Part shown: in pieces, positions 2,003-63,984 of the stretch
How the letters are laid out: every line of letters begins with the position of its first letter
Numbering within the stretch: position 1 is the stretch's first letter
Source of the DNA: Planctomycetota bacterium
Lineage (GTDB): Bacteria; Planctomycetota; UBA1135
Direction: 5' to 3'
Length of the DNA: 64,000 bases
NCBI GenBank assembly: GCA_002705055.1
Contig: PAHY01000006.1
Span: forward strand, 1 to 64,000
Notes under the pieces: model-generated
The model's database searches: none
What the model was told of the DNA's origin: nothing
The model's input: the letters and a program-made list of their open reading frames with translations, nothing else
Position numbers and translations under genes: made by a program

Positions 2003-2009
2003 GGGGCGT

Positions 2010-2016
2010 TATCCTA
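2010..2016. promoter_or_regulatory. Mirror-image -10 boxes of a bidirectional promoter
   Basis: The seven bases TATCCTA read TATCCT on the plus strand (2010-2015) and TAGGAT on the minus strand (2016-2011). Each ends exactly eight bases before a start codon: ATG at 2024 on plus and ATG at 2002 on minus. The whole intergenic region is 21 bases, too short for any other promoter. Both transcripts would start at or just before the start codon. No good -35 is seen. Confidence 0.65.
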
Positions 2017-2023
2017 GACATCC

Positions 2024-3583
2024 ATGCGCTGGATTTCTCTAGCCCTCTTCGCATCCCTTGCTCTCCTGGCAAGTCCCGCCGCCGCGCAGACCGACCCGGC
2101 GGTCAAGGACTTCAAGCGTTACTTCAAGAAGGCCAAGGAAACCGTCGAGCGGGTGGAGTTCGTGCGCTCGCTCGAGAAGATCGACGATCCCGGCGTCGCC
2201 AAGGAGCTGCTCAAGGTCCTGAAGGACAAGGAGCCGGCGGTCGCGGCGGCTGCCGCCGAGGTGCTGGCCCAGCTGCCCTCGCCCGAGGCGCGCGCGCCCA
2301 TGCTGGAGATTGTCGAGAAGGGTAAGCCGGCAGAGCAACTCGGGCCGATCCTGCGCTGCGCGGCCAAGGGCAAGTGGGAAGAGTTCCTCCCGCTGCTGCG
2401 CCCGCACCTCGAGCACAAGGAGGACGGGGTCCGGCTCTGGGCGGTGCGCGCGGTTGGCAATATGAACGACGAAGAGTCGCTGCCGCAGATCGTGACCCTG
2501 GCGGGCGAGGATCCCAACCCGCTGGTGCGCGTCGCGGCGATCGAGTCGATCGTGCAGATGGGCAAGCCGCAGCTGGAGCTGTGCATGCCGCCGCTTCTGG
2601 CAGGCTTGAAGGACGAGGACACCAGCGTGCAGGTGGCCTCCTGCCTGGCTTTTCGCACGCTGCGGCACAAGGACGCGATTCCGGCCCTGATTGACACCTG
2701 GCAGAACGGCGAAGGGCTGGTGCTGCAGCACATCTATCCGACTCTCCTTGAGATCACCGACCTGCAGTTCGGCGCCGACGCCGAACAGTGGGGCCGCTGG
2801 TGGGAGAACGCGCAGGAGCGCTTCGAGATCCCCAGCGACGCCAAGCTGGCCGAGCGCCGCGAGGCCCGCGCCAAGACCGCGGCGCTTTACGTGCCCAAGG
2901 AAGGCAGCGCGGCCTTCGCCGGCATCGCCACACCCAGCCGCGAGGTCGTGTTCGTGATCGACGTCTCGGGTTCGATGGAGGACGCGGTGCTCGAGCGGGA
3001 GAAGTTCCGCCAGGCCGGCCACACGCAGTTCGCCAAGATGGACATCCTCAAGAAGGAGCTGGTTCAGGCGATTGACGGGCTGGAAGGCAACGTGATGTTC
3101 AACGTGCACGCCTTCGCCAGCGAAGTGGAGTCCTGGCGCAAGGACCTCGTCCCGGCCAATGCGCTGAACAAGAAGTCGGCCTCGGAGTTCGTCAAGAAGC
3201 TCAAGCCGATCGGCGGCTCGGCGGCGCAGGCCCGCGCCTCGGCCGGCCTGAGCGGCTCGGCGGGGGTCTCCGCCGGGCGCACCAACACCTATGCGGCGCT
3301 GATGGCCGGGCTGGGCGTCCAGGACGAAAAGGTGGCGCTGGCCGTGACCCGCGATGATTCGATCGAGGTCGAAGGAGTCGGCGACACGATGTTCTTCTTC
3401 TCGGATGGCCTGCCCACGGTGGGGGCGCTCGTCGACACCGACGAAATTCTCGAAGCCATCCGCAAGTTCAACGAGTTCCGCCGCATCTCGATCCACGCGG
3501 TCGCGATCGGCGATTTCAAGAAGACCTGGATGCGACGGCTGGCCGAGGAGAATTCCGGTCAATTCGTCGATCTCGGTCGCTAA
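2024..3583 (+). CDS. Secreted HEAT-repeat and von Willebrand factor A (VWA) domain protein
   Basis: The 519-residue protein starts with a signal peptide (residues 1-21, cleavage after SPAAA). Residues of about 40-260 form alpha-helical HEAT/PBS-type repeats with recurring patterns such as EVLAQLPSPEAR, AVRAVGN and AAIESIVQMG. A VWA domain follows, with the metal-ion-dependent adhesion site DVSGS at 313-317, a TNTYAALMAG segment supplying the conserved Thr, and FFFSDGLPTVG supplying the later Asp. VWA domains bind partners through a divalent metal; HEAT repeats are protein-binding scaffolds. The combination is frequent in planctomycete-type genomes, usually with unknown function. No transmembrane anchor is seen, so a periplasmic or extracellular location is likely. 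It is transcribed from the short promoter shared with the minus-strand isomerase gene. Confidence 0.8.
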   Translation: MRWISLALFASLALLASPAAAQTDPAVKDFKRYFKKAKETVERVEFVRSLEKIDDPGVAKELLKVLKDKEPAVAAAAAEVLAQLPSPEARAPMLEIVEKGKPAEQLGPILRCAAKGKWEEFLPLLRPHLEHKEDGVRLWAVRAVGNMNDEESLPQIVTLAGEDPNPLVRVAAIESIVQMGKPQLELCMPPLLAGLKDEDTSVQVASCLAFRTLRHKDAIPALIDTWQNGEGLVLQHIYPTLLEITDLQFGADAEQWGRWWENAQERFEIPSDAKLAERREARAKTAALYVPKEGSAAFAGIATPSREVVFVIDVSGSMEDAVLEREKFRQAGHTQFAKMDILKKELVQAIDGLEGNVMFNVHAFASEVESWRKDLVPANALNKKSASEFVKKLKPIGGSAAQARASAGLSGSAGVSAGRTNTYAALMAGLGVQDEKVALAVTRDDSIEVEGVGDTMFFFSDGLPTVGALVDTDEILEAIRKFNEFRRISIHAVAIGDFKKTWMRRLAEENSGQFVDLGR

Positions 3584-3648: not shown

Positions 3649-3725
<77 letters not shown>

Positions 3726-48152: not shown

Positions 48153-49117
48153 GGCTTCAGCTCCACGCGGCCGAGCTCTTCCGACTCATCGTCCGGCAGG
48201 TAGGGCTGCGTGCGATAGAGCAGGCGCGCTTCGCCCAGGGTGGCACCGTCCGGCATCGGCAGATTCTCGCGCCAGGTCTCGCCCGACGGCAACTGCGTGT
48301 TGACCAGATCGACCTCGTCCCGATAAGGGTCGCGGAAGCGGTGGACGTGTTGCCAATCTCCCCAATTGCCGTCTGCGTCCTGCCAGCGCACCTGTACATC
48401 GGCCGCGCGCGAGCGTTCGTCGGTGGGGAAGTTATGGCCAGCGCCATAGTTCTCGACCGAGAACCACGGGCCCTGGTCGTCGAAGCCGCCCTCGACGCGC
48501 ACGGCGCGCAGCAGCGCCTCGCGGTTGTGCGCCGCCGGGAAGCCGTGATGCCGGCCGCGCCGTCCGCCTTCGCGGAAGGTCTCGGTCATGTGGCAGTCCA
48601 GGCAGCTTTCCCCTTTCAGGTGCGCCGGCGCGGCGCGCCACTGATCGACGGTGCCGTGCTGATTGTGGCAGGAGGCGCAGTGCTGGACCGAGGACATCCT
48701 GGTCTCGTGGTAGGGCTGGCAGGGGGCGCTCGAGCTGGGCGTGCGATTGGCGCTTGCCATGCCACCCTGCGGGCCCTGGTGGCAGCTCAGACAATCTACG
48801 CCGGTGCCACGGTCGGCCGAACGGGCCAGCACGCGTTCGCCGGGCTCGAAGTCGAGCACGGGCCGGGGGGCGTGGCAGGCCAGGCACTCTTCGTTGCGGA
48901 AGTCATTGGAGAGCTTGCGGACCTCCGGGTTGTGGTAGGCGAAGGCGTGATGCGATTCCTCCCATTCCGCGAACACGGCCGAGTGGCACGCGGCGCAATC
49001 CTGGGAAGTCATCGGGCCGCGCACTTCCACCTGCACCGGCGGGGTCACCAGCTTGACGAGAACCCAGGCGCCGACTCCAGTTGCGGCGAGAGCGAGAATG
49101 GCAGGTGCGGCTTTCAC
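48149..49117 (-). CDS. Membrane-anchored multihaem cytochrome c (c554-like)
   Basis: The 322-residue protein begins with an uncleaved-looking anchor (ILALAATGVGAWVLVKLV) and has five CxxCH haem-binding sites at residues 41-45, 78-82, 109-113, 147-151 and 172-176. A sixth site reads CQPYH (133-137), with Tyr replacing the second Cys, and may hold haem by one thioether or be lost. Spacing resembles cytochrome c554/NrfB-type proteins. The C-terminal part is a beta-rich domain without haem motifs. The GTG start overlaps the ABC ATPase stop (GTGA), so electron transfer is linked by operon to metal import. Its electron partner is unknown. Confidence 0.85.
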   Translation of the reverse strand: MKAAPAILALAATGVGAWVLVKLVTPPVQVEVRGPMTSQDCAACHSAVFAEWEESHHAFAYHNPEVRKLSNDFRNEECLACHAPRPVLDFEPGERVLARSADRGTGVDCLSCHQGPQGGMASANRTPSSSAPCQPYHETRMSSVQHCASCHNQHGTVDQWRAAPAHLKGESCLDCHMTETFREGGRRGRHHGFPAAHNREALLRAVRVEGGFDDQGPWFSVENYGAGHNFPTDERSRAADVQVRWQDADGNWGDWQHVHRFRDPYRDEVDLVNTQLPSGETWRENLPMPDGATLGEARLLYRTQPYLPDDESEELGRVELKP

Positions 49118-61867: not shown

Positions 61868-62323
61868 CTAGAACATCTCAACCCGCGACCAAACATCCTG
61901 TTCGCCGCGGGTCAGAGCCCAGGCGATGCCGATCGGCTCGTGGTGTTCCCGGAAGCGAAACTCGATCCGATCCAGGCTGAGCTTCTGGCCGGCCACGCGG
62001 TGCGGCTTCGACTGAGCAAAGACCCGGTCCACCGTCTCCTGGAAGGCGCCATCCCCGTTCATGTCCTGGAAGATCCGTGCGCTGAAGCGGTAATCGGCGG
62101 GATCGAGGCCAGCGGCGAGATTCACCGAGCTGGAGTTGCTCTGGCCCACATCGCCGTAGCGGTAGTGCTCGCAGGAGATCTCTCCCAGGGGAATCTGCCG
62201 CCCTTTCGAGTCGTAGCCGTAAGCCGTATGCGTAAACGAGCCGCCGCCGTAGCTTCCGCCGGAATAACGCATTCCGCAGGCGGGGAGCGCCAGCAGCAGG
62301 GCAAGCAGGGAAAGCCGCAGCAT
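61868..62323 (-). CDS. Small lipoprotein of unknown function
   Basis: The 151-residue protein has a lipobox ending at C16 (LPAC) after a leucine-rich signal. A glycine/serine/tyrosine-rich linker (SGGSYGGGSF) follows, then a mostly beta-like part with acidic and aromatic residues (DMNGDGAFQETVD resembles a calcium-binding loop). I recognise no family. Its ATG is seven bases after a TATCAT box that mirrors the -10 of the divergent gene. Probably an envelope protein. Confidence 0.7.
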   Translation of the reverse strand: MLRLSLLALLLALPACGMRYSGGSYGGGSFTHTAYGYDSKGRQIPLGEISCEHYRYGDVGQSNSSSVNLAAGLDPADYRFSARIFQDMNGDGAFQETVDRVFAQSKPHRVAGQKLSLDRIEFRFREHHEPIGIAWALTRGEQDVWSRVEMF

Positions 62324-62329
62324 GGGGCC

Positions 62330-62336
62330 TATGATA
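62330..62336. promoter_or_regulatory. Mirror-image -10 boxes between lipoprotein and secreted-protein genes
   Basis: TATGATA reads TATGAT on plus (62330-62335) and TATCAT on minus (62336-62331). The start codons ATG 62341 and ATG 62323 are five and seven bases away, and the gap between the genes is 17 bases. Both messages should be leaderless. Confidence 0.65.
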
Positions 62337-62340
62337 GGGC

Positions 62341-63984
62341 ATGCGCATCCTCCCCGTCCTGATGCTTGCCGCCTGCTGGGCCCTGGGTTCGGCCGCCGCG
62401 CCCGCGCAGATCTTTGAAGTGGTGTTCCACGACGAGAAGACTGCCAAGAAATACAAGAAGGACATGGTCGAGATCGAGGGCCGCCTGCGTTACATCGGCG
62501 AGCTGCGCAGCGGGGTCGACTACAAGCCGGGCCAGGGCAGCAACTACGACCGGGCCGGCCGCAGCGAGTGGTTCCTGCCGAACCCCGACGACCCGACCAA
62601 GCTGCCGTACAAGGTCGATGACGACGGCCGGATCACCAAGGCGATCAAGAAGCAGGTCGGTGGGGTCCAGAACGCGCACATTGCGGCCATCACTATGTTC
62701 GCGCCCAACAGCAGCTGGCACGCGATCGGCCGCGAGTTCGAGCAGCGCATGGCGCGCATCGAAGAGCTGGAAGAGACGCGTGACCGCGAGGAAGAAGGGG
62801 GATCCGCGTGGCAGCTGAAGCATCGCGCGCTCCTTGAAGAGATCGAGCAGTCGCGGGTCTGGCTCGGCGGCTTTGGGTTTACCGGCGCCGCGGAGGATCT
62901 CGCGCGCGAGATGAAGAAGCAGACCAAGGTGGTCGGGCGCGAAGCCGCGGTAGAGCGCGAGCGCCGAGCGATGGAGGGCATCGGTGAGGTGCGCGTCGCC
63001 CAGGAGGTCAATGCCTCCGCCGAGCAGTGGGCGCCGGGCCACATCTTCAAGATCCAGGAGAGCCAGCATTGCCGGATCATCTACCACGCGGGGATTCCCG
63101 ACGGCGCCGTGGCCGGTTCACTGAGCATGGCCGAGAAGGCCATCCTGGGATTCCGCGCTCGGTTCGTGGAGCCCTACCTCGCGGAGGATTTCCCGGATCG
63201 CATCCCCGAAAAGGTCTTCATCGAGTGGTACTTCGGCCCAGACGATCTCACCGCGCACGAGAAGATGTACGAAGAGCATTTCGGCATGATCTGGGGGCCG
63301 AATAAGGCCGAGCGCCTCAAGATGGAGGGCTCGCGCAACATGCGCGGCGGCGAGAACCCAGACTGGCTCTACTACTGGCGCAACGTCGCGCAGGAGGATC
63401 CGGCCGGCAAGGTGGCTAACAACCTCGGCGTCACGCTGGCGACGGTGCACTACGGCACCAACTTCACCAAGGTCCCCATGGATTGGGTCGAAGAGGCCGT
63501 GGGCTACTGGGTCTCGCTCGAGTATCTGGGCCGCAACGTCGTCACCAACAAAGCCTTTGACTGGGGCAAGGACGATGAAGGGCGCACCGTGGGCCGCGGC
63601 GGTCGCAAGGACGAGGATGACAAGAAGACCGTCGGCGAGGGCTTCGTCCAGGCCGGCGAACGCACGCTCTATCTGCAGTCTGCGCTCGGTGAAGGCTCGC
63701 CGTTCTCCGCGCTGATGACCACGCGGCTCTTTGATATGCAGCGCGGCGACGTGGCGAAGTCCTGGGCGATGTTCGAGTATCTCGTTCGCACCGACCCGAA
63801 GCGCTCGCAGATCTTCCTCCGCGAGATGGCTAAGTTCGCCCGCGAGGGCGGCGACTTTCACGAGAAGCTGCGCAAGCGCGCGGAGTCCCTGTTCGAGGTG
63901 CGTGGCGAGGACGTGTTCCGCAAGCTCGACCGAGACTGGGAGGCTTGGGTGCGCTCCCAGCTCGGCCTGAGTCCCAAGGACTGA
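62341..63984 (+). CDS. Secreted protein with a degenerate gluzincin-like peptidase domain
   Basis: The 547-residue protein has a signal peptide ending near residue 22 (AAAPA then QIF). The first part is charged and alpha-helical with a coiled-coil-like stretch (RMARIEELEETRDREEE). From about residue 235 it resembles peptidase-MA/gluzincin-type proteins (DUF1570-like) common in planctomycetes: YFGPDDLTAHEKMYEEHFGM and, near 375, TVHYGTNFTKVPMDWVEEAVGYWVS. In active relatives this would be HExxH ... P-x-W-x-x-E-G; the Glu of HExxH is missing, so it is probably not a protease. Function unknown. Confidence 0.65.
   Translation: MRILPVLMLAACWALGSAAAPAQIFEVVFHDEKTAKKYKKDMVEIEGRLRYIGELRSGVDYKPGQGSNYDRAGRSEWFLPNPDDPTKLPYKVDDDGRITKAIKKQVGGVQNAHIAAITMFAPNSSWHAIGREFEQRMARIEELEETRDREEEGGSAWQLKHRALLEEIEQSRVWLGGFGFTGAAEDLAREMKKQTKVVGREAAVERERRAMEGIGEVRVAQEVNASAEQWAPGHIFKIQESQHCRIIYHAGIPDGAVAGSLSMAEKAILGFRARFVEPYLAEDFPDRIPEKVFIEWYFGPDDLTAHEKMYEEHFGMIWGPNKAERLKMEGSRNMRGGENPDWLYYWRNVAQEDPAGKVANNLGVTLATVHYGTNFTKVPMDWVEEAVGYWVSLEYLGRNVVTNKAFDWGKDDEGRTVGRGGRKDEDDKKTVGEGFVQAGERTLYLQSALGEGSPFSALMTTRLFDMQRGDVAKSWAMFEYLVRTDPKRSQIFLREMAKFAREGGDFHEKLRKRAESLFEVRGEDVFRKLDRDWEAWVRSQLGLSPKD

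Follow-up and report, generated by a model that had tools for sequence, protein, structure and literature searches.

Bidirectional promoters came out of start-site mapping, where the products that matter are hard to tell. As set out in PMC10268837 and PMC12825309, such promoters are defined by start sites on opposite strands that lie 7-25 bp apart, a distance of 18 bp being the commonest class. In their symmetric -10 form (Warman et al. 2021, as presented in these two papers), positions -7 and -11 coincide reciprocally on the two strands. They often lie between divergent genes and then yield two mRNAs. In E. coli, the two polymerases exclude each other, and the two directions are predicted to compete when one of them is activated (PMC12825309). 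Leaderless-type promoters form a second described group, and are routine in Deinococcus and Actinobacteria (PMC12340547, PMC3160421). Here, we describe a locus from an uncultured Planctomycetota bacterium at which the element TATCCTA very probably serves as one -10 element that is read both ways, giving two leaderless or near-leaderless mRNAs.

The gap at 2003-2023 and its flanking genes

The window, meaning the whole stretch of 64,000 nucleotides that was analysed, is one contig of a 3.85-Mb genome with 67% GC. Positions 2003-2023 of this window are the entire 21 bp between two divergent start codons, and read GGGGCGTTATCCTAGACATCC. The features of the locus are as follows:

1-201, - strand: start of a MurU-like nucleotidyltransferase gene, cut by the contig end (MurU models below cut-off; it follows the kinase in relatives)
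198-1145, - strand: AmgK-like sugar kinase, second gene of the operon (PF01636; AmgK models below cut-off), overlapping the TIM-barrel gene by 4 nt
1142-2002, - strand: xylose-isomerase-like TIM-barrel protein of 286 aa (PF01261, E 2.8e-35), with orthologues in 23 of 25 same-family relatives
2003-2023, no strand: intergenic gap, defined by the sequence, the ORFs and a gap length of 19-24 bp in 22 of 24 same-family genomes
2010-2016, no strand: shared TATCCTA core, in which two candidate -10 hexamers are shifted by one base against each other and the -11A/-7T pairs at 2011 and 2015 are reciprocal
2010-2015, + strand: putative -10 hexamer TATCCT of the HEAT/VWA gene, 8 nt from the ATG at 2024
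2011-2016, - strand (read 2016-2011): putative -10 hexamer TAGGAT of the TIM-barrel operon, 8 nt from the ATG at 2002
2024-3583, + strand: HEAT-repeat and VWA-domain protein of 519 aa with a signal-peptide-like start (Pfam HEAT_2 and VWA_3), the divergent neighbour in relatives

An earlier, sequence-only reading of this DNA had noted the 21-base gap and a -10-like hexamer on each strand exactly 8 nt from its own ATG, and the sequence confirms both. The same reading was wrong in calling TATCCTA a mirror image: reversed, the string becomes ATCCTAT, and it is not a full palindrome either, as only the outer TA...TA is inverted-symmetric. The relevant symmetry is the TA-NNN-TA inverted repeat, in which the -11A and -7T of each promoter stand opposite the -7T and -11A of the other; this pairing, the feature of symmetric promoters, is present at 2011 and 2015. 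Neither side contains a Shine-Dalgarno site in the 8 nt from hexamer to ATG, which read AGACATCC on the + strand and AACGCCCC on the - strand. As for the start codons themselves, orthologues of the leftward protein align from residue 1 at the left start (CAT at 2000-2002, - strand), and the right start (ATG at 2024) finds support in the conserved length of the gap and in an N-terminus that resembles a signal peptide.

The canonical distance from a -10 box to the start site is 6 nt. The earlier description of both genes as leaderless holds approximately, since this spacing would place transcription starts about 2 nt before each ATG, a start at the A of the ATG being also possible. For this genome, we predict an mRNA leader of 0-2 nt, with start sites on opposite strands that would lie between 18 bp apart (canonical spacing, about 2 nt before the ATGs) and 22 bp apart (at the ATGs). 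The gap has no space for any other leader, which counts in favour of a shared promoter. A -35 motif was sought among leaderless genes, and none was found, which counts against it.

The leftward operon (1-2002, - strand) resembles one for cell-wall sugar recycling and is kept in relatives, with matches that fall under curated cut-offs. The kinase occupies the same position in 22 of 23 loci from the named relatives, which are mostly uncultured Planctomycetota. On the other side, a tRNA-Pro (CGG) lies at 3649-3725 (+ strand) between the VWA gene and a gene resembling transcription terminator Rho, a label that comes from reading the sequence only.

The core among relatives

Nearly all of the TIM-barrel orthologues have a divergent VWA gene across a short gap. 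The earlier reading had named as its refutation a loss of the symmetric element in close relatives whose gene order is unchanged; the element proved instead to be retained across 15 genera: exact TATCCTA is present in 20 of 24 same-family gaps (this genome counted), the other four have related variants, and the TIM-barrel proteins across these 24 gaps are only 46-62% identical. Since TATCCTAG occurs only 10 times in the whole genome and TATCCTA is exact in so many orthologous gaps, the core exceeds what chance would give. Outside the core, conservation is mostly 0-0.7 bit, the exceptions being the VWA start codon and two G residues, one located two bases before the core and the other immediately following it; that the core stays exact while its flanks drift also speaks for a shared promoter. 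The spacing between core and start codon is mostly 7-11 nt on the left side and 5-9 nt on the right. In G015 and G010, the core is 22 and 15 nt, respectively, from the left start, and these two cases count against the shared-promoter reading.

The variant cores are TAACCTA in G010 and TAATCTG or TAACCTG in three genomes of genus g10. The g10 variants retain the rightward TANNNT together with the leftward -11A and -7T; their leftward reading is CANNNT, not TANNNT, which makes the leftward promoter there probably weaker or displaced and also speaks against the shared-promoter reading. Taken together, the reciprocal -11A/-7T pairs and the rightward TANNNT are each present in 24 of 24 anchored gaps, an agreement that is partly by construction for the four variant cores, which were picked by eye, and unaffected for the 20 exact ones. 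L027 and L028, two relatives that belong to another family, show no element of this kind beside the start.

In one relative (G002, locus L094), a 1,511-bp stretch with an open frame stands between the TIM-barrel and VWA genes. It is bounded by two exact 61-bp direct repeats, each spanning the whole shared element, with one copy per gene, so that each gene would retain a complete predicted promoter. G002 is a metagenome-assembled genome, so the repeats may reflect an insertion accompanied by duplication or, alternatively, an artefact of assembly. The first 119 residues of the frame in the insert gave no Pfam match.

Leaderless-type boxes and other divergent pairs

In a 0.86 Mb sample of the genome, annotated with a home-made gene caller (which performed poorly on G012, with 44 genes in 260 kb), TANNNT lies 5-10 nt before 104 of 603 starts (17%), with a peak at 6 nt, compared with 13-16 in control stretches of the same width. 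The signal recurs in several relatives from other genera. Leaderless-type promoters therefore appear to be routine in this lineage, and the focal gap has the feature of leaderless genes, a TANNNT at a short fixed distance (8 nt on both sides) in a genome enriched for it.

The seventh base sets the focal site apart from boxes that serve a single gene. In this genome, the base after a one-sided TANNNT is A in 6 of 88 cases, whereas at the focal site it is A in 21 of 24 gaps for the rightward reading and in all 24 for the leftward one; a binomial figure for this contrast treats genomes as independent and is not to be taken literally, the contrast itself being large. The centres TCC and GGA each occur in 7 of the 88 one-sided boxes. 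The leftward hexamers of the two conserved pairs (TAGGAT and TAGAAT) together make up 24 of the 88, compared with 10 for the rightward ones (TATCCT and TATTCT). For the focal hexamers alone, the counts are equal (TAGGAT 7, TATCCT 7), and a stronger leftward direction at the focal pair is for this reason only a guess.

The second conserved pair is pdxJ/rsmD, also divergent, in which a gap of 18-24 bp with a TANNNTA core is present in 12 of 15 same-family genomes (11 with TATTCTA, one with TATCTTA), 7-10 nt from pdxJ and 6-9 nt from rsmD. These loci are L201 (contig C37 of this genome, G000, near 48535-48557) and its relatives L249-L263. In G006, G013 and G014, the pdxJ/rsmD gap is 48-118 bp with no shared element visible; in G013, a TACCCT box of its own stands 8 nt upstream of rsmD. 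At ispG and its neighbouring phosphoesterase gene, a common TATTGTA is seen in this genome only, and the two were rejected as a conserved pair; many relatives keep a TAGAAT-type box at ispG, with a variable seventh base. The contrasts at pdxJ/rsmD and ispG fit the expectation that the extra symmetric base persists only at boxes used by two genes.

Across the genome, the raw pattern CAT-N4-9-TANNNTA-N4-9-ATG occurs 18 times, compared with 3 for the backwards pattern, with a family-wide excess of about twofold. These raw counts were dropped as evidence, given that an ATNNNAT control occurs 22 times in this genome and more often in many relatives, and a coding-frame test was used instead, which demanded a coding score of at least 36 in both directions and no gene spanning the element. 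By this measure, 9 of the 18 matches open into coding frames both ways, as against 1 of the 15 control matches examined (Fisher p 0.008). About nine candidate pairs of this kind are hence visible in the genome, two of them within the window, the second being:

62324-62340, no strand: gap of 17 bp with TATGATA at 62330-62336, between the ATGs at 62323 (-) and 62341 (+)

It separates a rightward gene of 547 aa from a small, lipoprotein-like gene that runs leftward. The gene at 62341 was considered as a further conserved pair and rejected: -10-like boxes recur close to its start in several relatives, but a search beside the gene did not find the leftward partner there. Partners among the pairs include OsmC/YbjQ, SRAP/DUF2238, a chorismate-binding enzyme with a tyrosine recombinase, IspG/phosphoesterase, PdxJ/RsmD-like proteins and a BNR-repeat sialidase-like pair; among the nine, L196 has a left side without a Pfam match. 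The sialidase-like pair (L204, G000:C43:33288-33309) consists of two divergent genes with a common TATCCTA. We would give even odds to a broader proposal, namely that divergent leaderless pairs in this Planctomycetota family are systematically organised around a 7-bp TANNNTA core that makes up practically all of their shared regulatory DNA, that pairs such as pdxJ/rsmD and TIM-barrel/VWA have stayed locked to one element for as long as the family has existed, and that the three central bases set the balance between directions.

The proposed shared promoter, its alternatives and described systems

Under the shared-promoter reading, sigma, most likely with the housekeeping RNA polymerase, would act on TATCCT for rightward transcription of the HEAT/VWA gene, and on TAGGAT of the other strand for leftward transcription of the TIM-barrel/AmgK-like/MurU-like operon. 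Because each promoter's -11A and -7T pair with the -7T and -11A of the other, a single melting site of a few base pairs would serve both directions, and two polymerases could not occupy the element simultaneously. Transcription would begin at each ATG or about 0-4 nt from it, and translation would proceed without a Shine-Dalgarno site. We infer initiation in both directions, the exact start sites and mutual exclusion from the sequence. The proposal of the earlier reading that one element drives both genes gains support from the retention in 15 genera, the genome-wide signal, the pdxJ/rsmD pair, the rarity of A as a seventh base at one-sided boxes, and the G002 copies.

It is unlikely that the core is instead a -10 box in one direction, probably TAGGAT for the TIM-barrel operon, with the HEAT/VWA promoter inside the TIM-barrel gene and a coincidental rightward reading. 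Bacteria do have promoters within coding sequence, and TAGGAT-like boxes match the commonest pattern of this genome, TAG(A/G)AT; against this, the rightward TANNNT is kept in every gap, one-sided boxes seldom carry the symmetric base, and at ispG, a one-sided case, the seventh base varies. The VWA start, moreover, mostly stays 5-9 nt from the core, and the VWA gene in G002 retains its own copy of the element.

Less likely still is that the core binds a regulator of both genes, instead of or besides acting as a promoter element. The central three bases (TCC in 20 of 24 gaps) are conserved beyond the bare needs of TANNNT, as a regulator site would explain, yet conservation covers only about 8-10 bp and inverted symmetry only CTA-NNN-TAG, where typical dimer operators are longer; the core also sits exactly where the leaderless -10 boxes of this genome sit, and gene pairs of unrelated function have different centres. 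Chance, by which a short run of AT-rich DNA inside a GC-rich gap would resemble two -10 boxes, could draw on the raw CAT-TANNNTA-ATG counts, which are no higher than those of the control, but the exact retention across genera contradicts it and makes it extremely improbable. Of 13 divergent gaps of 16-26 bp, 6 contain a centred element, where shuffling would give 0.08, though four of these six are the focal locus or its orthologues.

Comparative genomics indicates here that practically all the promoter DNA of two protein genes can reside in a single shared -10 element, and that selection can maintain this element across many genera. If this is true, the locus would be a minimal natural setting in which to study how the ratio between two transcripts is determined by one 7-bp element. 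It also suggests that symmetric promoters can be found by sequence alone in uncultured leaderless lineages, with practical aid to start-codon annotation in this Planctomycetota family.

The locus has in common with symmetric -10 promoters the shared -10 element, the reciprocal -7/-11 positions and, at canonical spacing, predicted start sites 18 bp apart. It differs in that the genes in the cases described are not reported as leaderless and have extra promoter DNA or regulator sites between them, whereas the gaps found here span 16-24 bp, contain little besides the element and are kept at specific pairs family-wide. With leaderless -10 genes (Deinococcus-Thermus, PMC12340547; bacteria generally, PMC3160421), it shares a TANNNT placed about 12 nt upstream of the start codon and the lack of a Shine-Dalgarno site, but in both of these papers each gene has a single box; neither "divergent" nor "bidirectional" appears in the text of PMC12340547, and "divergent" is also absent from that of PMC3160421. 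The EcoRV restriction-modification promoters (PMC5333194) are likewise two divergent promoters with overlapping polymerase sites and coupled transcription, though they have a C-protein regulator and a C transcript that is not leaderless. In the papers searched, we found no description of leaderless pairs with a common -10 element. Symmetric -10 bidirectional promoters and leaderless -10-adjacent genes are known; what we did not find described is the two combined, and conserved, so as to fill practically the entire space between the genes of specific pairs. The element appears to work like the symmetric -10 bidirectional promoters and, on testable features, to belong to them, and it has the sequence features of leaderless -10-adjacent genes too. 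Judged by sequence comparison, the arrangement is an unusually compact, conserved form of a known promoter type.
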